From a virus, in the IMG/VR virus record IMGVR_UViG_3300049733_000035, positions 1 through 29,700 of that record: a DNA stretch of 29,700 nucleotides; one strand, given 5' to 3'. Position 1 is the stretch's first letter. Each line of letters opens with the position of its first letter. The notes under the pieces are model-generated. The model worked only from the letters and a program-made list of their open reading frames with translations, had not been told where the DNA came from and did not search any database. The position numbers and the translations under genes are program-made. Below are positions 868 through 29,060 of this stretch, one piece after another.

Positions 868-1419
868 ATGGATAATCCACTTCGCATCATCCGCACTTAC
901 AATGGCTATACTCTCGAAAAGATTTCAACGATGACCGATGTAACTCGTCAATACATCGACCAGCTTGAAAAAGGTTTCTACGAAGTTCCCAACTTCTCAG
1001 TTCTCAGAGCCTATAGCAATATAACAGGTAATGAACTAAGTGTTGGTGAACTTAATAACAGCTATAGCGAATGGCGAATTAGGAACCGGCTCGAAAGCGT
1101 GAAGCGTTATGGCCTACAGCCGATTAAGGAACACCTAATGCAACCCCACCTAACCCGAAAGCCCCCTGTAGACGACGCCGGAGGCGTGAAAGTAGTTCTC
1201 CGTCAACCCAACTTTATCAGTGACCGGCAACCCAGGTACAGGGTTTTCAAGAACTGGAGAGAATTTTACTTTACTACTCAATACGAATTCTGTGTAGCGA
1301 TGTGTGTGCGTCCCAGGGATGTAAGTCGCTATGAGATTGGCCATGCTAGAGGGATGCCACATACCCTACAGGTAGCTATGGGAAACCTAACGGAAGGATT
1401 TGCAGTTGAGTACCGGTGA
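868..1419 (+). CDS. regulator with two helix-turn-helix regions, 183 aa
   Basis: Residues 5-55 look like an XRE/Cro-type helix-turn-helix, with the recognition region around TDVTRQYIDQLEKG. A second region at about 133-172 (QYEFCVAMCVRPRDVSRYEIG) has the same plan, so the protein seems to carry two DNA-binding units joined by a basic linker with many Pro and Arg residues. The gene lies directly after a divergent promoter pair and probably controls one or both. Its ATG sits where its own promoter should start transcription, so the message is probably leaderless. No integrase is seen in the window, so a lysogeny role is not implied; an early or late switch is equally possible. Confidence 0.8.
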   Translation: MDNPLRIIRTYNGYTLEKISTMTDVTRQYIDQLEKGFYEVPNFSVLRAYSNITGNELSVGELNNSYSEWRIRNRLESVKRYGLQPIKEHLMQPHLTRKPPVDDAGGVKVVLRQPNFISDRQPRYRVFKNWREFYFTTQYEFCVAMCVRPRDVSRYEIGHARGMPHTLQVAMGNLTEGFAVEYR

Positions 1420-1579
1420 AAAAGTTAATCTCAAGAAGCATAGACATCAACTACTTAAGAGCAAAACTAGCCTTACCTATTGGTGCCTAGTTAAAGGATG
1501 CTGGTTTCATATTGGAACTAAACTTCCTAAGACAGATAACTACTCTATTTTGAATAGGTATTACTATGGCTGCTACTAA
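1406..1579 (+). CDS. putative small protein, 57 aa, TTG start
   Basis: This ORF opens with TTG at 1406 inside the last codons of the HTH gene and has GGAAGGA 7 bases upstream. It ends 14 bases into the small terminase gene. The product is basic in its first third (GEKVNLKKHRHQLLKSK) and rich in aromatic residues and Cys in the rest (TYWCLVKGCWFHIGTKLPK), with three Cys and several Trp/Tyr. It fills what would otherwise be a 146-base gap in a tightly packed region. No family is recognised. The non-ATG start and short length keep confidence moderate. Confidence 0.45.
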   Translation: MSTGEKVNLKKHRHQLLKSKTSLTYWCLVKGCWFHIGTKLPKTDNYSILNRYYYGCY

Positions 1580-2282
1580 GCGTGAGTTCCTGGAACCATG
1601 GGAACGTGAAGTCGTTCTATTTATAGAGCGTTGGCACAGCATGTATGGAACGCTTCCTGATGATAATCAAGTAATCGATTACCTTAATAGCATTGACTTT
1701 GAACTAGCTTTTGAAAAGCTTGTCGCGCTGAAGCGTGATTTTCTTTTTCAGGAGTCAATGCGGGTCCGTGGAATTTTCATCGATGCTAATGAACGACTTA
1801 AGACAGGTCAGCTTAGTCCCCGTCAAATGCAAGCTGCTGCTACTATGCTTAACTACGTAGATGGTAGAAGTGACGCTAAAAAGTTGAGAGATCTAGGTAT
1901 CACAGCTGAAGAGTGGGATAGCTGGATGCTTAATGAAGGTTTCGCTAATTATGTAAATGGTCGCGCTGAAAGGATGATGAATAATCTTACACATGAAGCG
2001 CATAAGGGTCTAATTAAGGGAATGAGACAGGGCAACACTAAATCAATTGAGCTTTTCTACGAACTGACCGGACGTTATACTAAGAATCAAGACAGTGGGA
2101 TTAATCCCCGACAGTTCATCGGTCAAATCTTGGAGATTATTCAGCGTCACGTTAAAGATCCTCAGACCCTTAATCAAATGGCGTTGGAGATGAGTCAACT
2201 AGCTATTGAAGCTTCATCACCGGCTCAAACAACGATTAAGGTAGGACCTACAGCGATAACCCATAGGGAACTGGAGTTTTGA
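1566..2282 (+). CDS. terS: terminase small subunit, 238 aa
   Basis: The small terminase recognises phage DNA and hands it to the motor subunit during packaging. The central part (about 75-165) has the helical pattern of phBC6A51-type small terminases: LRDLGITAEEWDSWMLNEGFANYV followed by AHKGLIKGMRQGNTKSIELFYELTGRY, where the last section corresponds to the usual A-x-G-N/D-x-K-x-I-x-x-x-Y-E-x-T-G-R signature. The N-terminal region is also helical and acidic. The usual partner, the large terminase, lies 2.5 kb downstream rather than next door, with seven ORFs between. The ribosome-binding site before this ATG is weak, so translation may depend on the overlapping 57-aa ORF. Confidence 0.75.
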   Translation: MAATKREFLEPWEREVVLFIERWHSMYGTLPDDNQVIDYLNSIDFELAFEKLVALKRDFLFQESMRVRGIFIDANERLKTGQLSPRQMQAAATMLNYVDGRSDAKKLRDLGITAEEWDSWMLNEGFANYVNGRAERMMNNLTHEAHKGLIKGMRQGNTKSIELFYELTGRYTKNQDSGINPRQFIGQILEIIQRHVKDPQTLNQMALEMSQLAIEASSPAQTTIKVGPTAITHRELEF

Positions 2283-2629
2283 TGGAACTAGCTCCTACAG
2301 GTAAAATAAAGCAACAGCGCGTCACCCCTGTAGAGACGCCCGAAGGGCGGGAGGTTAATTCTCCTAATTACACCCCACCACCTAATGTAGTTAAAAATTT
2401 CCATACCAGGTCGGATGTAGACAGTAGTTCTAGCAGTCAGCATCACACGCTGGGAGTTAAAAGAACTCAAGCTTCTCAAGGAAACCATAATCATGATGGT
2501 GTAACTTCCTTGAAAATAGCCAAAGGTGCAGGCTTGACCCTGACCGGAAGTAAGGGTGGAAACACAGCTCTTACTAATTTGATTAATATGTTGAAGCCTT
2601 ATGTCGAGTTTACGGATAACACGACATGA
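2282..2629 (+). CDS. small His/Ser-rich virion-type protein, about 115 aa
   Basis: The ATG at 2282 overlaps the stop of the small terminase gene (TGATG); a TTG one codon earlier is also possible. The product has a disordered, Pro-rich N-terminus and a section with SSSSSQHHTLGVKRTQASQG and NHNHDGVTSLKI. That His-Asp-Gly pattern is common in short structural proteins and fibre-associated proteins of actinophages. The C-terminus looks helical. A role as a small fibre, spike or head-decoration protein fits the neighbours, but no domain is recognised with certainty. Confidence 0.7.
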   Translation: MELAPTGKIKQQRVTPVETPEGREVNSPNYTPPPNVVKNFHTRSDVDSSSSSQHHTLGVKRTQASQGNHNHDGVTSLKIAKGAGLTLTGSKGGNTALTNLINMLKPYVEFTDNTT

Positions 2630-2757: not shown

Positions 2758-2839
2758 AGAAGAGTGCAACGTCTGTAATTCAGGTGACTGTATGAATCTT
2801 AATGGAGATGAAGCTCCTGTAGATCTTTCGGAGGAATAA
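2738..2839 (+). CDS. Cys-rich microprotein, 33 aa
   Basis: GGAG lies 7 bases upstream of the ATG, and the ORF stops immediately before the ATG of the first fibre-like gene, with its own last codons (TCG GAG GAA) forming that gene's ribosome-binding site. The N-terminal half has four Cys (3, 10, 13, 18) in MPCQKAEEECNVCNSGDC, enough for one metal site; the C-terminal half is acidic and ends LSEE. The good ribosome-binding site and exact packing support expression. The family is unknown. Confidence 0.55.
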   Translation: MPCQKAEEECNVCNSGDCMNLNGDEAPVDLSEE

Positions 2840-3496: not shown

Positions 3497-4113
3497 GTTA
3501 CTTTAGTTTTACAAATGTTACTCCACCTCCCAATGATGAACTTGTTAATGAAATTACTCACCTAAATAATAATTGGGATCACCTAGACGCTAAAATAGCA
3601 GCTCTACAGGGTCATGGTTCTTTTACTAATCAAGAAGTAGGACAGGAAGTTATAGTTCTTAATACAGGTAATCTTAGTCTAGGTGTTTGGAATGGTTCAA
3701 CATGGGTTTTTCCTTCACAGCCTAATAGTGCATGGACAACATGGACAGCTTTGCCTTTGACTTCTTCTCCTATAGCTCGTCCTAGTTTTACTCCTCGTTA
3801 TAGAGTTAATACTGGACTAAAAGTAGGTGAACTAACTGGTGGATTGCAAGTAGACGGAGCTGCGTCGGCTTGGACTGCATCTGCAATAGTTACAGTTACT
3901 CCAACAACTACAGGAGTTTTGGGATCAACTTATACTCCAGGAACACGATTCTATACAGGTGATTGTGCTACATCTATCCCGACTTCAAATGTTGCTGGAG
4001 GCCAATGGATGATAGATAATGCAAATGATGGTTTTAGATTGAGAGTACGTTTTATGGGTACTTCTGGAGGAGGTAATTTCCTTCAGCTTAATGGCATAAG
4101 GTGGTTTTGGTAA
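3493..4113 (+). CDS. fibre-like / receptor-binding protein B, about 206 aa
   Basis: The ATG at 3493 overlaps the stop of gene A (ATGA); an in-frame GTG at 3475 is also possible. The product starts MSYFSFTNVTPPPNDELVNEITHLNNNWDHLDAKI, matching the adaptor pattern of genes A and C, then a Gly-rich beta section (GSFTNQEVGQEVIVLN...VWNGSTWVF). From about 80 on there is a beta-sandwich-like domain ending FLQLNGIRWFW, very close to the ISLSGIRFWL end of gene A. The three genes look like products of tandem duplication and divergence. They probably form short fibres or spikes, possibly as alternatives or a mixed trimer. Confidence 0.65.
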   Translation: MSYFSFTNVTPPPNDELVNEITHLNNNWDHLDAKIAALQGHGSFTNQEVGQEVIVLNTGNLSLGVWNGSTWVFPSQPNSAWTTWTALPLTSSPIARPSFTPRYRVNTGLKVGELTGGLQVDGAASAWTASAIVTVTPTTTGVLGSTYTPGTRFYTGDCATSIPTSNVAGGQWMIDNANDGFRLRVRFMGTSGGGNFLQLNGIRWFW

Positions 4114-4808: not shown

Positions 4809-6324
4809 TCGTAAAATCGTAACTATACATGATGCACTTAAAGAATTGGGAAGTAATCTAAGTAAACTCTCTTATGCACCAAACATGCATAGCTATGAAC
4901 CACATATTAAGCAAAAGAAGTTCCATAGCTCACCTAAGAAGCGACGTCTGTATATCGGAGGTAACCGATCAGGTAAAACCGTTGGTGGAATTATGGAGGA
5001 TATTTGGTGGTCTACAGGAAAGCATCCTTTTTTGAATCTACCTCAGCGGCCTATGGAAGGTCGTATTGTAACCGTTGATTTTACCTACGGTCTTAATCAA
5101 ATTATCATACCTAAACTTAAGCAATGGATACCTCCCTCAGAACTTAGGGGAGGTTCTTGGTTTACAGCTTATGATGCTGGTTTGCGCGTACTTAACTTTG
5201 AAAACGGTTCAACTATTGAGTTGATGTCTTATGAACAGGACATGGAAAAGTTCGCTGGTGTTCCTCGTGACTGGACTCATTTTGACGAGGAACCACCTAA
5301 ACCAATCTATGATGAATGTCAAGCTCGACTAATTGACCGAGCTGGTAGGTCATGGATAACTATGACACCGCTCGATGGTATGACGTGGGTTTATGATCTA
5401 CTCTATGAACCTGGAATAACCGGAAATCCTGGTGTAGATGTTATCCAGGTTGATATGGCAGAAAATCCTTATATCGATCCAGAATCACGAGATGAATATC
5501 TTAGTAATCTGGATGAAGATGATATAGCAGCACGAAAAGAAGGTAACTTCGTTCAACTCGGTGGTTTGGTTTACAAGATATTTAAACCAGAGATACATGT
5601 AATAGATCCTGTAGATCCTGTAGAGTTTTCAGGTCAGAATTATAAACATTATATGTCATTGGATCATGGCTTTAATAACCCCACAGCAGTGCTATGGCAT
5701 GCTGCTGATGTAGATAACCGAGTCTATACTTTTGATGAACATTATGTAGCAGGCATGACTATTGACTTTCATGCTAAGATAATTAAACAAAAAGAACTTG
5801 AACATAAACGTAACCCTGACATGCGGATATGCGATCCAGCGCTCGCGCAGCGTCAGGGTGTTACAGGCACCTCTATTCAAACTGAATATGCTATTCGTGG
5901 CGTAGGTATGGTCTTGGGTAATAATGACGTAATTACTGGTGTAGCTAAAGTTAACCAGTATCTAGCTATTCAGGCTGATGGTAAACCTTCTTGGCGAATT
6001 ACTCGTAACTGCGCTAACCTGATTAAAGAAATAGCTCGACTAAGGTGGAAGACTTGGGCAAGTAAAAAGCAGGCAGCGGATAATAATCCGTATGATCAGA
6101 TTCATAAAAAAGATGATCATGCGTGTGATAGTGCTCGCTACTTCTTTTCATTTATGCCCAGCCTTAGGCAAACTGTACCACCCCCTGTAGTTAGACAAGT
6201 TCCTTCAGGATTTGGGGGAGTACCTAGGAATCCTAATACTGGATTTATAGATTCAAATCTTACTCCTTCAGCTCTTGCAGGAAATAAAGAAACTCAGTGG
6301 CAAATTCGACTTAACGAGGATTAG
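4798..6324 (+). CDS. terL: terminase large subunit, 508 aa
   Basis: This is the ATPase-nuclease motor that packages DNA into the prohead. The N-terminal ATPase has Walker A GGNRSGKT (54-61), and Walker B with the catalytic acid at THFDEE (Asp163-Glu164-Glu165). The C-terminal RNase H-fold nuclease shows the acidic patches expected for metal binding: MSLDHGFNNP, RICDPALA and the late KKDDHACDSARYF. Its length is normal for the family. The ATG at 4798 with AAAAGG about 6 bases upstream is preferred over the in-frame GTG at 4783; it overlaps the fibre C gene by 11 bases. The 149-aa gene starts 2 bases after the stop. Confidence 0.95.
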   Translation: MARDRKIVTIHDALKELGSNLSKLSYAPNMHSYEPHIKQKKFHSSPKKRRLYIGGNRSGKTVGGIMEDIWWSTGKHPFLNLPQRPMEGRIVTVDFTYGLNQIIIPKLKQWIPPSELRGGSWFTAYDAGLRVLNFENGSTIELMSYEQDMEKFAGVPRDWTHFDEEPPKPIYDECQARLIDRAGRSWITMTPLDGMTWVYDLLYEPGITGNPGVDVIQVDMAENPYIDPESRDEYLSNLDEDDIAARKEGNFVQLGGLVYKIFKPEIHVIDPVDPVEFSGQNYKHYMSLDHGFNNPTAVLWHAADVDNRVYTFDEHYVAGMTIDFHAKIIKQKELEHKRNPDMRICDPALAQRQGVTGTSIQTEYAIRGVGMVLGNNDVITGVAKVNQYLAIQADGKPSWRITRNCANLIKEIARLRWKTWASKKQAADNNPYDQIHKKDDHACDSARYFFSFMPSLRQTVPPPVVRQVPSGFGGVPRNPNTGFIDSNLTPSALAGNKETQWQIRLNED

Positions 6325-7427: not shown

Positions 7428-9674
7428 GTGGCACAGAGTGTAATTCCTCCTCAGCCAAAGCTTTCTCGGAAGCAAAAGCAGGGCAATAAGGAAATAGAGA
7501 AAAAAGTTGTAGAGTGGACACACAGTAAGCAGTTTCAATGCAAAACTGTGCGTCAGATTTATGAGCGTCAGTGGTATTTGAACATAGCTTTTTATCTAGG
7601 AAAGCAGAATGTTCAGTTTCTAAATGTGCAGGGAACTAGTCCAGGTGGTTCGACGCGCCTGTATACTCCTCCTGCACCTTTTTATCGTTCACGTCCTATT
7701 ATGAATCTTATACGTCCTGCTATTCGTACAGAACTTGCTAAGCTTACAGCACAGAAGCCTACAGCTGTTATTGTTCCCTCTACTACAGAAGACAGAGATT
7801 TGTATGCTGCCCAAGCAGGTGAACAAATCTGGGAATCTATCTATAGAGACAAAAGGCTCAAGCAAAAGTTCCGTCAAAATGTAATGTGGACTCTTACTAC
7901 AGGTAACGGGTTCATGAAAACGTATTGGGATTCTAATGCACAAGACAAGTCTGGGGCCCAAGGGGATTTTTGTTATGAAGCCGTAAGTCCATTTCATCTT
8001 TTCTTTCCTGATATGCTTTGCGAAGATATAGAAGATCAGCCATATGTTATACAGATAACTACACGTACTATTGATTGGATTCGTCTTAATTATCCTGATA
8101 TTAAGGTTGAACCTAATGTTACAGAAGCGTCCGATCTATTTAATGATTCGTTTCTTCAGCTTGTAGGTGCTACTGATGTTCGTAGAGATTCAGTTGTTTG
8201 CCATGAAGTATGGATCAAACCAAAACAAGTAGATTTTCTTCCTAATGGAGGAATGTTTACTCTTATTGGTGATAATCTCGTACAGTTTGTAGAAACTAAT
8301 CCTTATATTCATCAGCAGTTTCCTTATGCCCATACTCGTCATATTCCAGCTTCACGTTTCTATGGTGAGTCTGTAATTACGGATCTTATTCCTATCCAGC
8401 GTGAGTATAATCGTACACGTGGTCAGATCATTGAGAATAAAAATCGTATGGGTCATATTAAGCTTCTTTACGCGAAGGGCTCTGTAGATCCGACTAAGAT
8501 TAATACCGATCCTGGGCAGGGTATTCCTTATGAACTAGGTTTTCCTGCACCTCAGCCTGTACCGCCTGTACCACTTCCTAACTATGTTCTACAGGAAGTT
8601 GATAGGCTTAGGATGGATTTTGAGGATATATCGGGACAGCATGATGTATCGAAGGGGCAAACACCACCAGGTGTCACAGCAGCTACTGCTATTTCGTTCC
8701 TTCAAGAGCAAGATGAAACAATGCTCTCGTCTACCTTCCAGAGTATTGAAGAAACCTTTGAAAAAATAGGTTATCAAACTCTATGTCTTGTTAAGCAGTA
8801 TTGGAATGTCCCTCGTATTGTTAAAGTTACTGGTACCGATGGTCAGTTTAGTGCTATGACTTTTAAAGGTTCTCAGATCGGTGATAATACAGATATACGA
8901 GTAGAGGCAGGTTCTGCTCTTCCAACTTCCCGCGCTGCTAAGCAGGCGTTTATTATGGACCTTATGTCTCAAGGCTTTATTCAGCCTGAACAAGGTCTTG
9001 AGCTTTTGGATATGGGTGGAGTTCAGCGACTCTACGATAACCTTAAGGTCGATAACGCTCAGGCTTCACGTGAAAATCTTAAGATGAGCGCGGTAACTCA
9101 AGAGATGATTAGTGCATATCTTGAAAGTTACATGCCAGACCCCGTTATGCAACAGCAGCCGCAGAATTCGACTATTGAGTCTATTCTAGGTATTCCTGTC
9201 TCTAATCCTCAGCCTGATTTGAGTGGAGACCTGTCCATGATGGGTCTTAGTTCAGATCCTATGGCTGAAGATCCTACGGCTCAACAACAACAACAATCAC
9301 CTTTTATTGACCCTCATACAGGACAGCCTCTAGTTGATGGAACTGGACAACCGACTGAACCTCCTCTTATTGTTCCTGTCAATAGTTACGATAACCATCA
9401 AGTACATATCCAGGTACACAATAATTTCCGTAAGTCACAGGCTTATGAAACGCTTCCGCAAGAAACTAAGGATCTTTTTGAACAGCATGTAAATCAGCAC
9501 CTAATGGCGCTGGGTGTTATTCCTGGACAACCGCAGCCTACAGGTGAGATGATGGATTCAGGTGCAGCTCAGAATTCTCCTGTAGCTTCTTCAATAGATC
9601 CTCAGGCTTCTGAACAACAGCAAGCTAATCCTTTTCAGCAAGACCCGCAGGGAGGTACACAACCTAATGGCTAA
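7428..9674 (+). CDS. portal protein, 748 aa
   Basis: The portal forms the ring through which DNA enters and leaves the head. The N-terminal 400 residues match P22-like portals of podoviruses, including RQWYLNIAFYLGKQ, PIMNLIRPAIRTELAKLTAQKPTA and the crown/stem section GESVITDLIPIQREYNRTRGQIIENKN. The C-terminal 200 residues are rich in Gln and Pro and probably disordered (EDPTAQQQQQSPF), which makes it long for the family. GTG at 7428 is chosen because AAGGAGGAGGGAG precedes it. It sits between the packaging genes and the scaffold-capsid pair, as usual, and overlaps the next gene by 8 bases. Confidence 0.92.
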   Translation: MAQSVIPPQPKLSRKQKQGNKEIEKKVVEWTHSKQFQCKTVRQIYERQWYLNIAFYLGKQNVQFLNVQGTSPGGSTRLYTPPAPFYRSRPIMNLIRPAIRTELAKLTAQKPTAVIVPSTTEDRDLYAAQAGEQIWESIYRDKRLKQKFRQNVMWTLTTGNGFMKTYWDSNAQDKSGAQGDFCYEAVSPFHLFFPDMLCEDIEDQPYVIQITTRTIDWIRLNYPDIKVEPNVTEASDLFNDSFLQLVGATDVRRDSVVCHEVWIKPKQVDFLPNGGMFTLIGDNLVQFVETNPYIHQQFPYAHTRHIPASRFYGESVITDLIPIQREYNRTRGQIIENKNRMGHIKLLYAKGSVDPTKINTDPGQGIPYELGFPAPQPVPPVPLPNYVLQEVDRLRMDFEDISGQHDVSKGQTPPGVTAATAISFLQEQDETMLSSTFQSIEETFEKIGYQTLCLVKQYWNVPRIVKVTGTDGQFSAMTFKGSQIGDNTDIRVEAGSALPTSRAAKQAFIMDLMSQGFIQPEQGLELLDMGGVQRLYDNLKVDNAQASRENLKMSAVTQEMISAYLESYMPDPVMQQQPQNSTIESILGIPVSNPQPDLSGDLSMMGLSSDPMAEDPTAQQQQQSPFIDPHTGQPLVDGTGQPTEPPLIVPVNSYDNHQVHIQVHNNFRKSQAYETLPQETKDLFEQHVNQHLMALGVIPGQPQPTGEMMDSGAAQNSPVASSIDPQASEQQQANPFQQDPQGGTQPNG

Positions 9675-10140: not shown

Positions 10141-10226
10141 CCTTTTCCTGTAGACCCTTCTAAACTTTATATCAGGTTCAGGGCCTCCCTTAGCTGGGCA
10201 AGGTACAAACCGGAATAGGATACCTT

Positions 10227-11018
10227 ATGGGTACCCCTGTAGAGTCGTCCGATAGTGGTGAAGTTACAGAGCCAACTACTACCTCTTCTGATCAGGGAGG
10301 TAATAGTTCTCCAGGGACTAATCCGGCTTGGAATGACGTACTCAGTGTAATTCCCGAGCAGCTTCACTCTCAGGTTACTTCTCACTTTCAAAAGTGGGAT
10401 CAGGCGGCTAATAGTAAGATTTCCAGTCTGAATAGTCAACTGGAGCAGTATAAGCCATTTATGGAACATGGTATTGATGGTGACATCCTTACTCAGGGTG
10501 TTCAGCTTCTTTATCAGCTTCAGAATGATCCCAAGTCTCTATACGATGCTCTTGTTCAGAACTTTAATTTTAGTCCTGAAGAAGCAGCTGAAGCAGTAGA
10601 GGAAGCTACAGAAGAATCTGAGAATAGTAATCCTGAGTTTAAAAAGCTTCAGGATGGCTTTGAACTGCTCGCGCAGCACGTTCTTAATCAGGAAAATCAG
10701 AAGCAAGAAGCTGCTGCTGATGCTCAACTTGATAAAGACTTGAAGGCTGCGGCTGAGAAGCATGGAGAATTTGACGAGCCGTACGTTCTTTATCAGATGT
10801 ACACGCACGGTAAGTCTATGGATGAAGCCGTTCAGGCTTATCAGGACATGGCTAATGGAATTCTCCAGAAGAATCAGTCTCCTTTTGCTCCCAATATTTT
10901 GGGTAGTAGTTCAGGAAACGGTTCTGGTCTTCCTTCTCAGGCTACAGATGTAACTAAGCTGAACAACAATGATACTAAAGCTCTTGTTGCTCAGATGCTT
11001 AAGGCCCAGCTTGGATAA
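10227..11018 (+). CDS. capsid scaffolding protein, 263 aa
   Basis: The scaffold guides capsid assembly and leaves the prohead before or during packaging. The product shows the usual plan: disordered Ser/Thr/Gly N-terminus (1-35), long helical, Gln/Glu-rich coiled-coil region (about 45-205; QLEQYKPFMEHGIDGDIL, PEEAAEAVEEATEES, EAAADAQLDKDLKAAAEKHGEF), and a short C-terminal helix (NNNDTKALVAQMLKAQLG) of the kind that binds the capsid protein. It lies directly upstream of the major capsid gene with a 17-base gap. The assignment rests on composition and position, which are both typical. Confidence 0.85.
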   Translation: MGTPVESSDSGEVTEPTTTSSDQGGNSSPGTNPAWNDVLSVIPEQLHSQVTSHFQKWDQAANSKISSLNSQLEQYKPFMEHGIDGDILTQGVQLLYQLQNDPKSLYDALVQNFNFSPEEAAEAVEEATEESENSNPEFKKLQDGFELLAQHVLNQENQKQEAAADAQLDKDLKAAAEKHGEFDEPYVLYQMYTHGKSMDEAVQAYQDMANGILQKNQSPFAPNILGSSSGNGSGLPSQATDVTKLNNNDTKALVAQMLKAQLG

Positions 11019-12232: not shown

Positions 12233-12257
12233 TCTGTAGTATTAGCCTCACTACAGG
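12233..12257 (+). other. hairpin ahead of the capsid terminator
   Basis: CTGTAGT and ACTACAG form a 7-bp stem with a loop of about 9 bases, just before the main terminator. Both arms are copies or near-copies of the dispersed CCTGTAG motif. It could protect the 3' end of the capsid mRNA. Confidence 0.4.
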
Positions 12258-12262
12258 AAAAG

Positions 12263-20700: not shown

Positions 20701-22166
20701 CTAATCCTATTGATTTTCTTTATCGTATCCAGAACGCTGTAGAAACTGCTGTTCGACAGAAGAATATGTTTGATGATATTGCTGCTCGTTGGGGCAATAT
20801 TGGGCGAAGTGGGGCTTATAAGGTAACTGTTAATCATCCCCGATTTAATGGAATTTTCTTTACCGCAGAGGATGCTGAGCAGGTTAATAGGTTCTTGAAA
20901 AATCTTAAGGAAATTCAGAAGCCTAATTCTAAGCCTATGCAGCTTTTTGATAATGTACTTTCTAAGTGGAAATCATCTGTAACTATTTATATGCCATCTC
21001 ACCATATTCGTAATCTTATTGGTGACGTGTATTTTAACTGGATGGCTGGAGTTAACTCTACTCATGCTTACACTAAAGCTCTTTCAGTTATGCGCGCTCA
21101 GAAGGGCAAATATGAAGGATTGGAAGATATCGGTGATTTGGTATCTCCCATGGCTCTCACTCGCGCTATTATGCGTAAGTCTGATCCTAAATCTGCTGGT
21201 GATCGTATTGCACTAACCATGAAGAATGGCACACGTATCACTAATGATATGATTTACGTGTCAGCTTTTCAGCAGGGGCTACTTCCGGCAGCGCGAGTTT
21301 TGGAAGATATTCCCGATGATGCCGCTATTTCTGTACTTGATAAATTCAGACCACTAGGAGGTAAGGGTCAAAAGTTTGCCCATAACGTAGCAGAGGGTCG
21401 AGATCATTACATCAGGTTGGCTCATTACATAGACCAAATTAATAAGGCTGGACCTGGTGTTACTTTTGAACAAGCGACGCGAAACGCTGCTAAGCAAATT
21501 CGTAAGTGGCATCCCGACGGTATGGATTTGACGGCTTTTGAACGTAATGTAATGCGACGTATCTTTCCGTTTTATAGCTGGACTCGTAAAGCCTTGCCTC
21601 TTATTATCGAATCTATTGTATCGAACCCTGGTAAAACTATGGTCTATCCTAAAGCCATGAATACTATTCAGCAGTATATGGGAATGGATACCTCCGTAGA
21701 GGACCCATTTCCTGTAGACCAGCTTTTTCCTGACTGGATTCGTGATAAAGGTGTAGGGCCCATTTTGGGTGGTCCTGGAAGTTATGGTTTGCTTAATCCT
21801 AGCAATCCAATGCTAGATATTGGTGCACAAATGAGTAATCCCCGTGCTTTTGTCGGTGGGATGGTCAATCCAGCACTTCAAATTCCGGCCGAAGTTATGA
21901 CTGGAGTTAACATTGACACTGGAGCACCTATCCAAGACAAGTCTCAATACATAACTCAGCAGATTCCCGGAATTTCCCAGGCTAGTCGTCTTACTAACGT
22001 AGATATTGGTGGACCCGGTCCAAAGTATGAGGATCAGGGCTTTGGAAATACTCAAAACCTTATTAACTTCTTGACTGCTATCGGGTATCTTGATACTGGA
22101 CCTTATCAAAAGTCGGCTCAATTTGACCTTAAGAATTATTTGAGGAGTCACAGTGGCAATAGCTGA
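17793..22166 (+). CDS. giant internal virion / ejection protein, 1457 aa
   Basis: This is the largest gene in the window. The first 300 residues hold helical sections with SQWAGLASDIVGDPTNFISLPAKGVKAATEIG, a phrase common in huge actinophage and cyanophage virion proteins. A Pro-rich linker follows (about 305-340; VPVPRPIAPVEAPVEIP), then long Ala/Lys-rich helices. A C-terminal section carries YMPSHHIRNLIGDVYFNWMAG and MRRIFPFYSWTRKALPLIIESI, a conserved pair in such proteins. No catalytic motif is visible. Length and position fit a T7 gp16-like ejection protein, but the transglycosylase that gp16 carries is encoded separately here (23055-23624). The stop overlaps the NlpC/P60 gene by 14 bases. 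It contains at least ten copies of the dispersed motif. Confidence 0.8.
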   Translation: MLEGWKPLDLSMLVRPDTSSERAQLAKNILANTTWPSLEQMAASLNNASGEGAPHNVSLLSRLFSLLQTPLHTIANAADEALAGHQSDDTDSVLDDFGKTIGGVATGGARGFAAGLRGTFGSDEAASDPSDRTGFGDVINRFYLHMPTAEALDPANRQEVIDRLTKAKVNQLGGNDKGNLLYMNGVGDSEVQDFFKKSQWAGLASDIVGDPTNFISLPAKGVKAATEIGEATEDIGKGIKSSQEALNSGYEIAPVDPNKIIKRTPGSYRITLKPGTVQNSIVNSTGDIIKPPEWFNFPNSADEIPTNVPVPRPIAPVEAPVEIPANSFLDDIEWPGDPTQRQLQEVAKSAVPDFDSLLGDMVKSGEMSSALPKTTEAITPVKNIADKLMLAKPEVQAKLAGKLARDVIAHVTSGRKGWQYEVADLLSKAHAQVNFNKVSGYLDKLAKNPEAVKNLARTADGRKRLVGNLSAAIADDVSEVVSQSQKVQKAITAPVAADQIVNKMATGDQAILARSAEVETKAKAIGLKPRYFETAQNIINHYTEMILGNKAAAGMKNPEAYNRAITSGKNVRYSGPQQSQMLNRIINAIPQFKRANDAARYETAMKILNLVETHFISKGAIPHSAVAVKDSVPLRLSEVMAAVGPQAIARDPKLMTEILRAFNPRNTKPLDEIVQQAVEEVKAGNAVNSAPAVDTGIKAGEEAIQSTGDVSLARMQEAVNSAGKAANAMANATGAGETGAKIAQDFIKNTYMPVVTIDTAIARSHLNTLTALGNDTFKNYAKYANGPILTRAIVRQTGLPWPRQLANKIEAKVPEWLGARFNAAYKNMDMREIYLREAATAKSSVAKRASYINQLVKTYGRDPGTWRDAMQGAQGFKMTIDTTNELSKQLIKTMENLFGSSGLRYGAALDNAVAGRSQLLMRELNETLKRYGLGNFKFIKSKDVKDGMGGTRDFSKGIDWLNSWEIWNITNPIDFLYRIQNAVETAVRQKNMFDDIAARWGNIGRSGAYKVTVNHPRFNGIFFTAEDAEQVNRFLKNLKEIQKPNSKPMQLFDNVLSKWKSSVTIYMPSHHIRNLIGDVYFNWMAGVNSTHAYTKALSVMRAQKGKYEGLEDIGDLVSPMALTRAIMRKSDPKSAGDRIALTMKNGTRITNDMIYVSAFQQGLLPAARVLEDIPDDAAISVLDKFRPLGGKGQKFAHNVAEGRDHYIRLAHYIDQINKAGPGVTFEQATRNAAKQIRKWHPDGMDLTAFERNVMRRIFPFYSWTRKALPLIIESIVSNPGKTMVYPKAMNTIQQYMGMDTSVEDPFPVDQLFPDWIRDKGVGPILGGPGSYGLLNPSNPMLDIGAQMSNPRAFVGGMVNPALQIPAEVMTGVNIDTGAPIQDKSQYITQQIPGISQASRLTNVDIGGPGPKYEDQGFGNTQNLINFLTAIGYLDTGPYQKSAQFDLKNYLRSHSGNS
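19272..19312 (+). repeat. 9-bp inverted repeat of the dispersed motif
   Basis: CCTGTAGCC (19272-19280) and GGCTACAGG (19304-19312) are reverse complements separated by 23 bases, inside the 1457-aa gene. It is a second case of two motif copies facing each other. Confidence 0.65.
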
Positions 22167-23061
22167 CTTCTTGGAAGCTAGGAGGAAAAACCTAGCAAGT
22201 AACCCTTATAAAAATTACATGCTTGGAAACTCTAATAGCTTGACCAGCTCGAAACTGGGACAGTCTACAGGCGGATTGAAGTTTAAGTCCCCTGTAGCTG
22301 GGGGAGACACTAATTTCGGAGCCTTGCTTAGTGATACAGTAGCAAATGCCGCATCTAGTAGGGCTCAGTTTCAGACTGACTATAACAATCAAGAAATAAC
22401 TGATCTCGCTGCGGATATTACTCAGAAGTCAGCGGGAAAAATCAACACAAATGAATTTGGAATACCGACCAGTACCAAGCCTGACTTTTTTAGTTCTTTT
22501 AAAGATCATCTGAGTTCAATTAATAACACAGGAAAACTTGCGCTACAAACAGAACAAGCCAAGTCTGCATACAGACAAGCTGTAAGTATGCAAAACTTGG
22601 CTGGTTTTTCTGTTGTGCCAGGTACTACCCAATTTTATGATGCTAATGATTTGCCTGCTGGAGCTAGTAAAAATAACCCTGGTGCTCAGGCTGTAGCATC
22701 AGCTATGACTGCTTATAAAAACCATACTCCATATGTTTGGGGTGGTAATTCGCTTACTGGGGGAGTAGATTGCAGTGGGCTTGTTCAACAGGTTTACAAA
22801 AAACTCGGTATCAATCTTCCCCGTACTACGTATCAGCAAGCGAAAGCTGGCAAAATTATCTCCACCAAATCACTACTCCCCGGAGATTTGGTGTTCTATA
22901 ACACCGGTTCACGTGATCCAAACGGGATCGGAACATATGGACACGTTGCCATTTATATCGGAAATGGACAAGTAGTTCAGGCGTATAACACTAAGAAGGG
23001 GATTATGGTTACTTCCCTGACTTATGCTGGTCAGCCTTCTTTGGGGGTTAGGCCATGGTAG
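22153..23061 (+). CDS. virion NlpC/P60 peptidoglycan endopeptidase, 302 aa
   Basis: NlpC/P60 enzymes cut peptide links in peptidoglycan. The catalytic domain fills the last 120 residues: YVWGGNSLTGGVDCSGLVQQ (nucleophile Cys207), then LPGDLVFYN and YGHVAIYIGNGQ (His264). The third position is Gln276 (VVQAYN) where many members have His; Gln, Asn and His all occur in the family. Residues 1-170 are helical and polar and may dock the enzyme in the virion. The GTG start has GAGGAG upstream and overlaps the giant gene end. Being next to ejection genes and away from the lysis cassette suggests local wall opening at entry rather than lysis. Confidence 0.88.
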   Translation: MAIADFLEARRKNLASNPYKNYMLGNSNSLTSSKLGQSTGGLKFKSPVAGGDTNFGALLSDTVANAASSRAQFQTDYNNQEITDLAADITQKSAGKINTNEFGIPTSTKPDFFSSFKDHLSSINNTGKLALQTEQAKSAYRQAVSMQNLAGFSVVPGTTQFYDANDLPAGASKNNPGAQAVASAMTAYKNHTPYVWGGNSLTGGVDCSGLVQQVYKKLGINLPRTTYQQAKAGKIISTKSLLPGDLVFYNTGSRDPNGIGTYGHVAIYIGNGQVVQAYNTKKGIMVTSLTYAGQPSLGVRPW

Positions 23062-23624
23062 GAATTAATGTACCTGATCCTAACTTGTCACAAGACTTCT
23101 ACAGCCGTCTACAGCGGATTGTGAACTCAGGTAACTACGACGTACCTATGAAGTTGCCTGATCCTCCTAAACCTAGTGTTGCTAATTACAACGTTGGCGT
23201 AGGTGGAAACTACAACACAACAAGTAGCTCTACAGGGGGTATGAACCAGCTCGATAGAATTATCAAAGCTATTAAAGGTCAGGAATCAGGCAATAACTAC
23301 AGCGCTAGGAACTCTATGTCTGGAGCTTCTGGCGCCTACCAAGTAATGCCGTCCAATATCACAGGCTCTCATAGTGGCTGGGACTGGGAAGCTCTCGGTA
23401 GAGATGTTTCTATGTCTGAGTTTATGAATAATCCTGCTATACAAGACTCTATTGCCCGTTACAAACTTAACCAGTACCTTAGTCAGTACGGAGCCGCTGG
23501 AGCCGCTGTAGCTTGGTATGGAGGACCCGGAGCAGTTAAGAATATGTATTCTAAAACTACCCAAGCCGGGGGTTATCCTTCACTTTACGACTATTGGCAG
23601 GCGGTACTTCGGCGAATGGGTTAG
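23055..23624 (+). CDS. virion lytic transglycosylase (SLT-like), 189 aa
   Basis: This enzyme would cleave glycan strands. The domain covers about 65-170: IIKAIKGQESGNNYSARN with the likely catalytic Glu77 in the E-S-G-x-x-Y motif, then GASGAYQVMPSNI and AAVAWYGGPGAV, all landmarks of SLT/Rpf-like domains. The first 60 residues are a polar, Pro-rich linker (KLPDPPKPSV). The ATG overlaps the NlpC/P60 stop by 7 bases, so the two wall enzymes are translationally linked. Their place after the ejection genes fits entry enzymes. There is no signal peptide, consistent with delivery in the virion. Confidence 0.87.
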   Translation: MVGINVPDPNLSQDFYSRLQRIVNSGNYDVPMKLPDPPKPSVANYNVGVGGNYNTTSSSTGGMNQLDRIIKAIKGQESGNNYSARNSMSGASGAYQVMPSNITGSHSGWDWEALGRDVSMSEFMNNPAIQDSIARYKLNQYLSQYGAAGAAVAWYGGPGAVKNMYSKTTQAGGYPSLYDYWQAVLRRMG

Positions 23625-23929: not shown

Positions 23930-24156
23930 CGAAACTCACTTTTACTAAGGAACCTGTAGCTTATATAGGTCTTGCTATTCTTATCTTGCAGATTCTACAG
24001 GCGATATATAAGGGACAGCCTCTTGAGGGTTTTTCTGATTCACTCCTTACTATCGGCGGGACCATTATTACGCGACAGCTCGTAACCCCTGCCATTGGTA
24101 AGACTAAGCGCCAGTTTGAGATGGACCCTGTAGAGGAGACTGACCCTCATGCCTAA
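23926..24156 (+). CDS. holin, 76 aa
   Basis: Holins make the membrane lesions that let the endolysin reach the wall. Residues 10-29 (PVAYIGLAILILQILQAIYK) form a first membrane segment, and 36-57 (FSDSLLTIGGTIITRQLVTPAI) a weaker second one, followed by a charged tail ending VEETDPHA. The pattern E-P-V-x-x-x-G segment, short loop, then T-R-x-x-V-T-P is shared with many actinophage holins. It sits between the XhlA-like gene and the endolysin, overlapping both by a few bases. Confidence 0.82.
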   Translation: MTKLTFTKEPVAYIGLAILILQILQAIYKGQPLEGFSDSLLTIGGTIITRQLVTPAIGKTKRQFEMDPVEETDPHA

Positions 24157-25425: not shown

Positions 25426-25461
25426 AACCCCCTGTAGAGGGTCAAGACTCTACAGGGGGTT
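25426..25461. terminator. two-way terminator between convergent blocks
   Basis: AACCCCCTGTAGAG (25426-25439) and CTCTACAGGGGGTT (25448-25461) form a perfect 14-bp stem with an 8-base loop, with T-rich sequence on both sides. It lies between the rightward whiB-like gene and the end of the leftward block. The core of the stem is two facing copies of CCTGTAGA. Confidence 0.88.
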
Positions 25462-25470
25462 ACTTTTACT

Positions 25471-25599: not shown

Positions 25600-25996
25600 C
25601 TTCTATAACCTTCTTTGCAGCTTCTAGAGCAGCAGGTCCTACAATCTTGGGAATCTTATTTCCCCAGCGCTCACTATCGGTTCGTCCTACAGGGTTCCAA
25701 TCAATCCCCAAACGTTCGAGCGCGTTAGCTCGGCAGAGTTCTGAACAATACTGGACAGCGACATAGGTACTAGAGAAAGGTAGTTCACACTCTTTACAAA
25801 TCTTATCTTTAAAACCAGCTCCCTTACCCTGTACATAATAGAGAACTGATTCAGCCTCAAGCTGTCGCCTAAGACCAGCCTCGGCACTTTGTTCAGGTGT
25901 AGGAATACTGATAGCGCTAAGATCGATACCTAGAATTTTAGCGGATGCTTCAAGTTTAGCTTTAGTAAGACGGCTAGATTTACGACGAGGTGGCAT
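25592..25996 (-). CDS. zinc-finger protein of the replication block, 134 aa
   Basis: The N-terminus is basic (MPPRRKSSRLTKAKLEASAKILGI), followed by a helical acidic section. Residues 67-90 hold ICKECELPFSSTYVAVQYCSELCRANALERLGIDW, with four Cys as in the small zinc fingers that many actinophages encode near replication genes (CxxC, then YCS-x-x-CR and L-x-x-x-G-I-D-W). DNA binding is inferred from the basic start and finger. Its neighbours are the zinc microprotein and a 60-aa protein. Confidence 0.82.
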   Translation of the reverse strand: MPPRRKSSRLTKAKLEASAKILGIDLSAISIPTPEQSAEAGLRRQLEAESVLYYVQGKGAGFKDKICKECELPFSSTYVAVQYCSELCRANALERLGIDWNPVGRTDSERWGNKIPKIVGPAALEAAKKVIEDD

Positions 25997-26181: not shown

Positions 26182-26182
26182 A

Positions 26183-26635
26183 TTAAAGATCCAATACAGG
26201 GTGACGACGAAGCTTGTTATTAATTAGCCAGTAAACGCCATGAGCGTAAGCTGAATTCTGATCAGGAGTATGTTTCTTAGGATTATAAGGTACTTGAGCC
26301 CATTTACAAGCTTGAGACAAAATAGAAGAGGGTTGTGTATGTAGTGGTACATCCATTATCTGAGCCGCCAACTCAACAGCTCCATAAGCGCGGGAGGCTG
26401 GCATATCTGAACCTGATTGTTCAAGAGCTTTATCTTTACGCAGCCAGAAGCCTTCAATAATAAAAGCTTCTACAGGCTCATAGGTATTGGTAAAAGGAAG
26501 CTGGGACTGTTTGATGTGAATACCTAGATAAGCTCTGAGGTCCTTTTCCTGTAGAACGCCTTTGCTTCTGTCCGATCCATCATTATTAAATGTTGCAACG
26601 CCACAGCGTTTACCTGGATCGATTGCTACATACAT
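26183..26635 (-). CDS. RuvC-like Holliday junction resolvase, 150 aa
   Basis: This would resolve branched DNA formed during replication and recombination before packaging. The start MYVAIDPGKRCGVATF carries the first catalytic Asp (DPG-x-x-x-G), AFIIEGFWLRKD the Glu, and HTPDQNSAYAHGVYWL the C-terminal Asp of the RNase H-like fold. Its length is typical. ATG at 26635 puts the first strand at the usual distance; an in-frame TTG at 26644 is nearer to AGGGAAG and is an alternative. The gene overlaps the zinc-ribbon ORF before it by 26 bases. Confidence 0.82.
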   Translation of the reverse strand: MYVAIDPGKRCGVATFNNDGSDRSKGVLQEKDLRAYLGIHIKQSQLPFTNTYEPVEAFIIEGFWLRKDKALEQSGSDMPASRAYGAVELAAQIMDVPLHTQPSSILSQACKWAQVPYNPKKHTPDQNSAYAHGVYWLINNKLRRHPVLDL

Positions 26636-26819
26636 TTCGCTCAATCTTCCCTAGCTTTTTGCAGTTTTTACACCATGTCAAGGTGATGTCGGGGAAATTG
26701 AAACTTTTCTTATCAAAGTAGTCTAGAGGATTTCCACAATCACTACAATCAGGCAGTGAGTCCCCAAAATTCAGACTCGACGTTGAAATTGACCCCAAAG
26801 TCCTTCTCCCTCTTAACAT
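26610..26819 (-). CDS. putative zinc-ribbon protein overlapping polymerase 3' end, up to 69 aa
   Basis: The ORF overlaps the end of the polymerase gene by 71 bases in another frame and the resolvase start by 26 bases. Its unique part has two Cys pairs, PDCSDCGNPLDYF and TWCKNCKKLGK, a clear zinc-ribbon layout. AAGGAG lies 10 bases before the ATG at 26819; TTG at 26798 would give a shorter product. The long overlap lowers certainty about the start, but the Cys pattern in the unique region supports a real gene. DNA or RNA binding is possible. Confidence 0.55.
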   Translation of the reverse strand: MLRGRRTLGSISTSSLNFGDSLPDCSDCGNPLDYFDKKSFNFPDITLTWCKNCKKLGKIERNVCSNRSR

Positions 26820-27966
26820 CTTGCATAAGCTCCTTAATCATCGGTTCAAAGTAATCGACCTTGTTTTCCTTGATTTCAAAGAGAACTGAGTCATGAACCT
26901 GTAGAAGCATACGACACTCTGAATTATCCAACTCCTTAAACAGTCGGATCATGGCGCTGAATACAATCTCAGCTCCACCACCCTGAATAAGAGAATTGAA
27001 AGCCTTATGAGTTTCAGACCGGTAATCAAACCTACGACGACGACCGGTCCAGTAGTTAATATAGAGTTCACGGTAAGCTTTATCGTTGACGCGTTTAGCT
27101 AGATTGACGATATCGTCATGGCTAGCTTCCCACTCTGCGATGAATTTAAGAGCTTCCTGAGGATCTCCGCCAAGTAGATAAGCAATCTTAGCCTGTTGCG
27201 CTCCAAACATTTTGGCATAAGTAATAGTCTTACAGCCCTGTCGAGGAAGATCTAGTTCCTTAGACATCATAGTGAAAACGTCTGGAAACTTTCCTGTCTC
27301 ATCTGGAGGAGAGTTGAATACTTCAAGCCAGTTTCGCTGTGCAGCATAAGCGCTTGCCAGTCGCAATTCCAACTGCGAATAGTCAACGTTGAGTAGAACA
27401 TATCCAGATTTTGCGATGAACACCTGCTTAAGCTTACCATTCCAGCGCTTTTCTGATTCTTTCGGGATCTGTTGTAGATTAGGCTGTCTACAAGATAGAC
27501 GCCCGGTTTTTGTGCCATGAAGCCAGTAATTAGGTCGCAATCGTCCATCAGGGGAGAGGAGTTCCAAGTAAGGTTTATAATTAGATGAAACAGTTTTCTG
27601 CCACCCACGGTATTCCAAGACCAGCTTGGCTGTATTTCCGAATTCATCAACACGAGCCTCCAACATTTCATCATATTCAGCCATAGCATCCTTATTAAAG
27701 GACGGCTTACCACTTGGAGTTCTAGCTACTACAGGCATCTCCATTTTCTTAATAAGAAGTTCTTCAAGATCCTTAGGTGAGCTAGGTTTAAATCCTCCCA
27801 ATTCTCGCTGAATTTGAATCATTCGACCAGTACCAATGGCAGCTTCACGCTTAGCCATCTCCTGGTCAATTAGTACACCACGGTTTTCCATAGCCATTAG
27901 TACTTTCATTTTTTCACACTCACGATCCCATAGATTAGGAATCGTCGATGGGGGAGTGAAGGCCAT
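26749..27966 (-). CDS. family A DNA polymerase, polymerase domain only, 405 aa
   Basis: This is the replicative polymerase. Motif A is LLNVDYSQLELRLASAYA (Asp195), motif B is RQGCKTITYAKMFG (Arg242, Lys246) and motif C is LLQVHDSVLFEI (His358-Asp359). The thumb and TGRLSCRQPNLQQIP are also typical. There is no 3'-5' exonuclease domain; a separate exonuclease lies 470 bases upstream in the operon. In the O helix the position equal to Klenow Phe762 is Tyr250, as in T7 polymerase, and the one equal to Tyr766 is Phe254. GAGGATAA stands upstream of the ATG, which follows the previous stop directly. Confidence 0.93.
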   Translation of the reverse strand: MAFTPPSTIPNLWDRECEKMKVLMAMENRGVLIDQEMAKREAAIGTGRMIQIQRELGGFKPSSPKDLEELLIKKMEMPVVARTPSGKPSFNKDAMAEYDEMLEARVDEFGNTAKLVLEYRGWQKTVSSNYKPYLELLSPDGRLRPNYWLHGTKTGRLSCRQPNLQQIPKESEKRWNGKLKQVFIAKSGYVLLNVDYSQLELRLASAYAAQRNWLEVFNSPPDETGKFPDVFTMMSKELDLPRQGCKTITYAKMFGAQQAKIAYLLGGDPQEALKFIAEWEASHDDIVNLAKRVNDKAYRELYINYWTGRRRRFDYRSETHKAFNSLIQGGGAEIVFSAMIRLFKELDNSECRMLLQVHDSVLFEIKENKVDYFEPMIKELMQDVKREKDFGVNFNVESEFWGLTA

Positions 27967-28203
27967 TTAAGACTTATCCTCCGAAAAGCCCATCATAGCC
28001 CATAGTTCTTTCTTCAACTTATTTTGAAGATCACTAGAGCTACTTTCATCAGCAATACGTACCACAATTGAATAAGAACCATTGCTAAGGTTTAGCAATT
28101 CTTCTCGCGCGTCAATAGCAGCTTGTGGAGTTGACCAAACACTCTCAATAGGTCCATGTGTCTGGCCACTAACAATAATATATACTGCAATTTTATCACT
28201 CAT
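27967..28203 (-). CDS. hypothetical protein between exonuclease and polymerase, 78 aa
   Basis: ATG at 28203 (MSDKIAVYIIVSGQTHGPIES) is preferred because GGGGGA lies 5 bases upstream and it overlaps the previous stop. The product is alpha/beta in pattern: two short strands, a helix (TPQAAIDAREELLNLS), a strand (SYSIVVRIAD) and a C-terminal helix. The family is not recognised. Its place between exonuclease and polymerase suggests a replication role, perhaps linking the two split subunits, but this is a guess. Confidence 0.72.
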   Translation of the reverse strand: MSDKIAVYIIVSGQTHGPIESVWSTPQAAIDAREELLNLSNGSYSIVVRIADESSSSDLQNKLKKELWAMMGFSEDKS

Positions 28204-28471
28204 GAAATCCCCCACAGCATTTACATGCATCTATAAACATGTCAACGGCAAATTTTTCTAGATCCTGTAGAAGCTTAGTTAGATTTTCGTCTTGTTCTAC
28301 AGTAAACCACTCTTCACGTAGAAACTTGATAAGTGTCAGAACTTCGCGCTCATTGACAATAAAAGGTTGATATCCGGGAGGTAGTTTAATAACTACTTCA
28401 TCAGGATCGTATACCTCTACAGGGATGAGCTTTTCTTGTTTATCTTCCTGTTTTCTTTTCCACAGGCCCAT
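28196..28471 (-). CDS. hypothetical acidic protein with CxCC tail, 91 aa
   Basis: ATG at 28471 (MGLWKRKQEDKQE) is the most likely start; TTG at 28489 is also in frame. The N-terminus is basic, then acidic and helical (EREVLTLIKFLREEWFTVEQDENLTKLLQDLEKFAVDMFIDA). The last residues are CKCCGGFHE, three Cys and a His that may bind metal. It overlaps both the exonuclease gene and the following gene, so it is firmly within the operon. The function is unknown. Confidence 0.7.
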   Translation of the reverse strand: MGLWKRKQEDKQEKLIPVEVYDPDEVVIKLPPGYQPFIVNEREVLTLIKFLREEWFTVEQDENLTKLLQDLEKFAVDMFIDACKCCGGFHE

Positions 28472-29060
28472 CAAAGCCAGCTTCCACAAAGAAAGGATAG
28501 ATTAGATTGAAGAGCATACGTGTACGGATAGCATCTTCAGTGGCGTATTTAGACATCGCGCGAGCTGGAAAGTCAGGTGACCACCCGTAAATATTGAACA
28601 TAGCTTGCCATACTGGATCTTTTACCTTACCATCTGGTAGATGTAGCTCATTCTTGATAAGCCAATCCAATCCCTTAGGCTTATTCTCATTGAGCATATG
28701 ACACATGATCATAGTGCAGTAAAAAGGTATGTCAAAAACATCCAAACCAGCAGTAGCCAGGCTAGGGATATCAAACTTAGCATTATGATAACCAAGCCTG
28801 CGACGACTTTTGATGATATTGAATAGTATTGTCTTCTGAGCATCTGGAATGTTATCTTCTGTATGAGCTACAGGAAAATAGGCGCCTTTAATCTCTCCCT
28901 TATACTCAGCTGCAATAGAGATACCGATACAAAAACCACGACCATCTCTGATATCTTCAGCATTAGTCTCGGTATCGATAACAAGAAACGGATCAGCCAG
29001 CGCGCAGCTAAGAGTAGCAGATCGCTGTTTCTGTAGCTCTTCGTTAGAAATCAAATCCAC
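28440..29060 (-). CDS. 3'-5' exonuclease (DEDD type), separate from the polymerase, 206 aa
   Basis: This supplies proofreading-type exonuclease activity. Motif I is VIDTETN (Asp29, Glu31), motif II is YHNAKFDIPS (Asn93, Asp97) and motif III is KYATEDA (Tyr172, Asp176), the set found in PolA-linked exonucleases. GTG at 29060 is chosen because AAGGAG lies 7 bases upstream; an upstream GTG at 29087 is in frame. In T7 and most PolA phages this domain is fused to the polymerase, but here two small genes lie between. It overlaps the ATPase gene before it by 17 bases. Confidence 0.88.
   Translation of the reverse strand: MDLISNEELQKQRSATLSCALADPFLVIDTETNAEDIRDGRGFCIGISIAAEYKGEIKGAYFPVAHTEDNIPDAQKTILFNIIKSRRRLGYHNAKFDIPSLATAGLDVFDIPFYCTMIMCHMLNENKPKGLDWLIKNELHLPDGKVKDPVWQAMFNIYGWSPDFPARAMSKYATEDAIRTRMLFNLIYPFFVEAGFDGPVEKKTGR

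Follow-up and report, generated by a model that had tools for sequence, protein, structure and literature searches.

What does a phage gain from a seven-base word that recurs throughout its DNA, and which molecule reads it? The question is raised by CCTGTAG (CTACAGG on the opposite strand), which was counted 57 times in the window, that is, in the whole 29,700-base stretch analysed here, which comprises the entire virus record IMGVR_UViG_3300049733_000035 (IMG/VR). Judged from its relatives, the window probably represents part of a phage genome of ~45 kb. As set out below, CCTGTAG(A) is very probably the site at which the phage's own primase-helicase, an enzyme of the archaeo-eukaryotic primase (AEP) type, recognizes the template and initiates. 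The analysis itself provides the excess of the word, its presence and absence together with the AEP domain, its fit to the primase tree, the AEP fold and the turnover of sites while the density persists; that a helix bundle reads GTG, and that synthesis starts opposite the two bases 5' of this triplet, is known from the literature.

Abundance and placement of the word

By exact count, CCTGTAG occurs 26 times on the plus strand and 31 times on the minus strand, spanning positions 1165 to 28874. A second-order Markov (trinucleotide) background predicts 4.5 copies (z = 24.6), and the word ranks first among all 7-mers of the window, as does CCTGTAGA among all 8-mers (33 copies versus 1.2 expected). 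A sequence-only reading of the window had reported this strong excess and proposed a k-mer count with a Markov background as a check; the count upholds the excess for the 7-mer as well as for the 8-mer, although the 57 copies, announced there under an 8-mer, belong to the 7-mer. Single-mismatch neighbours of the core CCCTGTAGA are found at or near background, so that each core position is specific. The wider word reads YYCCTGTAGA, with C or T dominating positions -1 and -2 and an A directly after CCTGTAG in 33 of the 57 copies.

The mean spacing is 495 bases for both strands together and ~1 kb per strand, compared with ~1–2.5 kb per strand for the words of most relatives. Plus and minus copies are intermixed in every 5-kb bin, which agrees with the earlier argument that a classical Chi site, being strand-biased, is not at hand. 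No regular spacing was detected (coefficient of variation mostly 0.64–0.95, near random; 1.38 in EqG8), nor do CCTGTAG sites pair more often overall than at random.

With respect to the genes, 24 copies lie in the sense orientation, all in the frame CCT-GTA (Pro-Val), 26 lie antisense and are spread over two frames, and 7 fall into the ~2.1 kb of non-coding DNA. The frame yielding a TAG stop is empty. The copies thus show the variety of frames, strands and non-coding positions that had been described before. Codon bias and Markov composition were rejected as causes: synonymous shuffling within each gene, by which protein and codon usage are preserved, leaves only 13.4 ± 2.9 copies in coding DNA (at most 23 in any of 500 shuffles) versus the 50 observed. 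The earlier doubt about codon bias was therefore justified.

Individual sites are short-lived. In genes aligned with the relative G009, 39 versus 25 sites were counted with just 1 of 39 in the same place, and in those aligned with G007, 33 versus 20 with just 2 of 33; these rates are no higher than that for any 7-mer (4.7%). In L071-L073, 11–17% of the sites are in place versus 3–4% for any 7-mer, the numbers being small. Positional conservation of single sites is accordingly weak or absent, while the density persists. Since the site number is kept as the positions change, selection acts mainly on density and not on single places, and it is not seen where the primase has been lost: the genes that contain 26 and 28 copies in the window contain 1 and 4 in G002 and G003, respectively, which lack the AEP domain. 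Loss of the motif at synonymous sites in close relatives, named by the sequence-only reading as a refutation, is real for single sites; the density is held together with the primase and is gone without it.

The gene that accompanies the word

Relatives of the window by terminase comprise uncultured phages (29 loci) and the isolates Arthrobacter phage Jasmine/Brad, Cellulosimicrobium phage DS1 and Microbacterium phage Shocker. Four of the relatives, G002, G003, G005 and G006, have terminases 60–63% identical to that of the window and show no comparable word. All open reading frames of the genomes were clustered and their presence was compared between word-bearing and word-less groups. Two features split the groups, namely the presence of a family A DNA polymerase (PolA) and the length of the primase-helicase. 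The latter comprises ~550–645 amino acids including an N-terminal primase part in the word-bearing relatives that have the early region, and 348–390 amino acids, helicase only, in the four word-less ones. A profile of the N-terminal part detected it in every word-bearing genome with the early region, whereas the four word-less genomes gave no match. In the window the right end cuts this gene, and the helicase end alone lies inside the record; the Pfam AAA_25 and PHROG 239/3123 matches cover the C-terminal ends of the profiles only. Going by the relatives, the AEP and helix-bundle part would lie past the contig end.

The N-terminal part carries invariant D-G, S-S-x5-H and R-P motifs. An AlphaFold2 model of G007 residues 1–340 (mean predicted local distance difference test score 79.7) superposes best on the RepB' primase of RSF1010 (3h20, E = 4e-10, 311 alignment columns in the structure comparison), followed by the AEP domain of the S-2L PrimPol (6zp9, E = 2e-8) and the catalytic domain of RepB' (3h25, E = 3e-7), and contains helices at residues 207–301. 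From these three structure matches it follows that the modelled N-terminal part consists of an AEP primase domain and a helical bundle behind it, with RepB' primase as the closest fold. On the sequence level the similarity is faint: Pfam gave only weak matches in this region (Prim-Pol, E = 0.0023; RepB_primase, E = 0.007–0.1), and a search of the PDB sequences with the AEP and helix-bundle profile found no relative.

PolA is likewise present in all word-bearing genomes with the early region and absent from the four word-less relatives. The word might thus be a site, for instance a Chi-like one, for a protein of replication or recombination that is co-inherited with the primase, be it PolA, the Cas4/RecB-like exonuclease, the SNF2-like helicase or RuvC; exonuclease and helicase genes do lie in the same module. 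We regard this as unlikely. T7, phiKMV and D29 possess PolA but neither an AEP primase of this type nor the word, for which reason PolA was rejected as the reader despite its co-occurrence in the lineage. RuvC, exonuclease and SNF2-like helicase (clusters 15, 16 and 19) occur in word-less relatives too and do not separate the groups, and the orientation bias of a Chi-like site is not seen. Reading of a CT-GTG-type word is familiar from AEP primases, whereas we know of no such case among these four protein families.

Less probable still is an operator or stoperator array of a repressor or regulator, for which the sequence-only reading had considered the helix-turn-helix (HTH) and the WhiB-like protein. 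The stoperators of cluster A mycobacteriophages are likewise dispersed, asymmetric sites, and the gene of a small zinc-finger protein is present in 8 word-bearing genomes and in none of the four word-less relatives. This gene was not found, however, in Shocker, EqG8 and G021 despite their word. Homologues of the HTH protein occur in the four word-less relatives, and none was found in several word-bearing ones; WhiB is uncorrelated with the word across the relatives. Furthermore, 50 of the 57 sites are located inside genes, and sense and antisense copies are balanced. All three regulators were consequently rejected as readers, the zinc-finger protein being a possible replication accessory. What probably stands of the earlier proposal is a genome-wide site of a phage protein, without the two candidates named for it.

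The words of the relatives have the same build in other letters. CCCTGTAG followed by A, C or G is found in G007, G009, G021 and L071-L073, CTGTAGCGG in G008, and CCTGTAGG in G015 and EqG8; a pyrimidine-rich flank lies upstream in the CTGTAG group. The word of Jasmine is CTGTGGGA (CT-GTG-GGA; CTGTGG 101 versus 16 expected), that of DS1 is CTGTCGC (CT-GTC-GC; CTGTCG 116 versus 28) and that of Shocker is CTGTAAAGG (CT-GTA-AAGG; CTGTAAAG 45 versus 0.1). Placed side by side, CTGTGGGA (Jasmine), CTGTAAAGG (Shocker), TGGTGTGG (Emalyn-type) and CCCTGTAGA (window) share the layout of the pRN1 template described below, which recurs as (YY)CT-GTA-GA, CT-GTG-GGA, CT-GTC-GC, CT-GTA-AAGG and GT-GTG-G. A scan of IMG/VR with the Shocker primase protein gave no matches. 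Further over-represented words are TACCCTAA in Shocker (L042; 15 versus 0.1), AGGCTATC in DS1 (L041; 12 versus 1.1) and CTATGCTA in Jasmine (L039; 10 versus 0.7).

Named phages with the AEP primase domain infect Gordonia, Pseudomonas, Serratia, Mycobacterium, Microbacterium, Curtobacterium, Arthrobacter and Clavibacter. GTGTGG ranks first among the hexamers of Lebethron, PMBT14, Serbin, Triscuit, Emalyn and Muddy, and GTGTGC among those of Amigo; GTGTGG takes rank 2 in Cozz and Shrew. A hexamer of the form [C/G]TGT[A/G/C][G/A/C] ranks at or near the top in nearly all phages that bear the primase; this holds for no control, be it lambda, T7, phiKMV, D29 or one of the four word-less relatives. 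In G012, a terminase-related fragment lacking the early region, AATGTC ranks first. Mapped on the tree of primase domains, the core word requires 7 changes (minimum 6) compared with a mean of 12.2 after shuffling, and 0 of 200 shuffles were as low. Jasmine and Amigo use different words (CTGTGG and GTGTGC) on the same host strain, Arthrobacter ATCC 21022, and GTGTGG is common to phages of Pseudomonas, Serratia, Gordonia, Mycobacterium, Microbacterium and Curtobacterium; the word is thus tied to the primase rather than to the host. A DNA signal that is general or imposed by the host (a protected modification site, an uptake sequence or avoidance of a defence nuclease), of which the two inverted-pair terminator hairpins of the window might be reminiscent since uptake sequences form such hairpins, is for the same reason very improbable. 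Corynebacterium phage BFK20 (L087), which encodes a different AEP primase-polymerase (gp43), has a very strong genome-wide word of its own, GCCGGGG (78 versus 8.2).

Proposed priming at the word

Read as the start site of the phage primase, the word would function as follows. The helix bundle would bind GTA-GA on the single-stranded lagging template, and the catalytic domain would form the first dinucleotide opposite the C-T located just 5' of it. The primer would thus begin with 5'-A-G and continue with purines, the upstream template being pyrimidine-rich, and would be extended by the family A polymerase of the phage. If priming needs a word of 6–9 bases, selection would keep copies on both strands at about one per kb and strand in any tolerated frame, and a drift of primase specificity between phages would carry the genome-wide word along. 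We infer both the binding of these words by the phage primases and their role in lagging-strand synthesis.

The sites are found on both strands at a distance of ~1 kb per strand, which is the scale of Okazaki fragments. The equal share of the strands would imply that both serve as lagging template genome-wide, as in bidirectional, multi-start or recombination-driven replication. GTG or a GT-x variant with the presumed initiating pyrimidine just 5' of it is present in the CT-GTA, CT-GTG, CT-GTC and GT-GTG cores, CN1A and Gibbous being exceptions. Primases generally prefer pyrimidine templates (PMC10345425), and a window primer of the type 5'-A-G-purine-purine would fit.

Several points weigh against this proposal. 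The AEP part of the window primase lies outside the contig, and its presence is deduced from relatives. The four word-less relatives have lost PolA along with the AEP domain, and this contrast alone does not separate the two; CN1A, with a weak word and no PolA found in the 33.6 kb read, hints at a case of AEP without PolA. GTGTGG takes only rank 8 in Elinal, and CN1A and Gibbous possess the primase with no TGT-type word among their top hexamers. Their best words, CCGTGCG (43 versus 9.6) and GTGCCCCG (11 versus 1.0), contain GTGC, as was spotted post hoc, and are weaker than those of the other phages; CCGTGCG(G) in CN1A (L083) and GTGCCCCG in Gibbous (L086) may mark an altered primase specificity. 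The T7 primase word is just modestly enriched (AGGGTC, 40 versus 17.6). Known AEP primases need only 3–8 bases, NrS-1 carries its 8-base site just twice (PMC7102993) and on RSF1010 each strand bears a single site (PMC4434180). Because such saturation is not found in NrS-1 and RSF1010, AEP primases do not generally bring dense sites with them; the density is a trait of this phage group.

The balance tips slightly towards a broader view, in which a widespread group of phages employs a replicative AEP primase that reads a word of 6–9 bases, the genome is recoded with this word at Okazaki spacing, specificity and word co-evolve, and priming is private to the phage's own DNA. If true, lagging-strand priming would separate self from host DNA, and the specificity of any such primase would be readable from sequence alone. 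Primase sites as such are already known, mainly as short words determined in vitro for few enzymes; the new aspect is the extended, genome-wide and co-evolving set. No report of genome-wide enrichment of or selection for primase sites with co-evolving specificity was found in the literature searched. For many AEP primases the apparent specificity can be read off the genomes (CTGTAG, CTGTGG, CTGTCG, CTGTAAAGG, GTGTGG and GTGTGC), and enzyme-site pairs are at hand, including the lab-cultured Jasmine, Shocker, DS1, Amigo, Emalyn and Muddy, which are useful for studying DNA reading by the helix bundle, change of primase specificity and own-genome-only priming. Reading the word as a primase site also explains a signal that otherwise resembles a regulatory or recombination code.

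The four word-less relatives (loci L044-L054) have kept helicase and RuvC and lost the AEP primase domain and PolA; this lineage may now rely on the primase and polymerase of the host. Besides the truncated primase-helicase, the window encodes terminase, portal, capsid, WhiB and the family A polymerase (Table 1), and a tRNA scan of it found none. Its host is likely actinobacterial, since the terminase-related isolates are Jasmine/Brad, DS1 and Shocker. In the Streptomyces griseosporeus JCM 4766 assembly, one contig (L038, NZ_BNBR01000011.1, 46,429 bp) encodes a terminase 62% identical to that of the window and has the look of an entire related phage.

Inverted copies of the word form two hairpins (Table 1), of which the one between convergent genes is likely a bidirectional terminator. 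Both look like a secondary use of the word, because site pairs overall are not above random. They recall uptake sequences reused as terminators.

Table 1. Copies of the word and further features of the window. Plain CCTGTAG rows are based on an exact count.
Feature	Position	Strand	Support
CCTGTAG site	1165..1171	+	
CCTGTAG site	1366..1372	-	
CCTGTAG site	2295..2301	-	
CCTGTAG site	2327..2333	+	
CCTGTAG site, non-coding	2816..2822	+	
CCTGTAG site	3604..3610	-	
CCTGTAG site	3908..3914	-	
CCTGTAG site	5012..5018	-	
Two CCTGTAG sites (5608, 5617)	5608..5623	+	
CCTGTAG site	6184..6190	+	
CCTGTAG site	7897..7903	-	
CCTGTAG site	8589..8595	-	
CCTGTAG site	9538..9544	-	
CCTGTAG site	9579..9585	+	
CCTGTAG site, non-coding	10147..10153	+	
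CCTGTAG site	10236..10242	+	
CCTGTAG site	11999..12005	+	
CCTGTAG site, non-coding	12251..12257	-	
Terminator-like hairpin of inverted sites (12271 -, 12293 +), then T-run	12261..12309	+	fold -34.3 kcal/mol for 12240-12312
CCTGTAG site	13365..13371	-	
CCTGTAG site	13399..13405	-	
CCTGTAG site	14372..14378	-	
CCTGTAG site	15190..15196	+	
CCTGTAG site	15833..15839	-	
Inverted site pair (15958 -, 15978 +)	15958..15984	.	
CCTGTAG site	16383..16389	-	
CCTGTAG site	16830..16836	-	
CCTGTAG site	18106..18112	-	
CCTGTAG site	18552..18558	+	
CCTGTAG site	18643..18649	-	
Two CCTGTAG sites (18738, 18750)	18738..18756	+	
CCTGTAG site	19272..19278	+	
CCTGTAG site	19306..19312	-	
CCTGTAG site	19909..19915	-	
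CCTGTAG site	19987..19993	-	
CCTGTAG site	20049..20055	+	
CCTGTAG site	21711..21717	+	
CCTGTAG site	22265..22271	-	
CCTGTAG site	22291..22297	+	
CCTGTAG site	23230..23236	-	
CCTGTAG site	23953..23959	+	
CCTGTAG site	23995..24001	-	
CCTGTAG site	24127..24133	+	
Hairpin, stem of inverted sites (25431 +, 25450 -), convergent late/early genes	25426..25461	.	fold -28.5 kcal/mol for 25415-25475
CCTGTAG site	25687..25693	-	
CCTGTAG site	26470..26476	-	
CCTGTAG site	26548..26554	+	
CCTGTAG site	26898..26904	+	
CCTGTAG site	27729..27735	-	
CCTGTAG site	28264..28270	+	
CCTGTAG site	28417..28423	-	
CCTGTAG site	28868..28874	-	
HTH protein	868-1419		
WhiB	25127-25414		
Small zinc-finger protein, CxxC/CxxxC	25592-25996	-	phrog_32248
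Family A DNA polymerase, polymerase part	26749..27966	-	Pfam DNA_pol_A, E 5.6e-61
Family A DNA polymerase, 3'-5' exonuclease part	28440..29087	-	Pfam DNA_pol_A_exo1, E 4.9e-9
Primase-helicase, C-terminal (RecA-like helicase) part, proposed reader	29044..29694	-	Pfam AAA_25, PHROG 239/3123

Comparison with known systems

Chi sites, stoperators and DNA uptake sequences are short, dispersed and strongly over-represented as well, and inverted pairs of uptake sequences are found in terminators, too. The word of the window differs from all three in lacking a strand or transcription bias and in being tied to a phage primase, not to recombination of the host, a repressor or a machinery for uptake. The T7 gene 4 primase, with its sites GGGTC/TGGTC, resembles the proposed system in that lagging-strand primers are made at short template words of either strand; it is, however, a TOPRIM primase with a zinc domain, its core comprises three bases and its genome enrichment is mild only. 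The mild enrichment of the T7 word within AGGGTC (L088) suggests that a milder form of this selection may be widespread.

Among the AEP primases, RepB' of RSF1010 (ssiA/ssiB) is the top structural match of the modelled domain, and GTG has been proposed as its start (PMC4434180). RSF1010 replicates by leading-strand synthesis only and has a single hairpin-type site on each strand, in contrast to the tens of sites per strand found here. The NrS-1 primase uses GTGG/GTGA and TTTGGTTA (PMC8718748). It shares with the enzymes discussed here its origin in a phage, the helix bundle and a long or GTG-type recognition, and its efficient site GTGG is contained in the GTGTGG word. As described above, the NrS-1 genome contains two copies of TTTGGTTA only; moreover, the NrS-1 enzyme is the replicative polymerase, whereas the window encodes a separate family A polymerase.

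The helix bundle of pRN1 ORF904 binds GTG in the single-stranded template CTGTGCTCA (CT-GTG-CTCA), and primer synthesis begins opposite T and then C, immediately 5' of GTG (PMC11009956; PMC8076596). ORF904 has the same domain order of AEP, helix bundle and helicase, and its template CTGTGCTCA resembles the Jasmine word CTGTGGGA, with the start opposite the C-T just 5' of GTG. In pRN1, GTG alone suffices and genome-wide enrichment has not been described, whereas the words of the phages comprise 6–9 bases and vary between phages (GTA, GTG or GTC).

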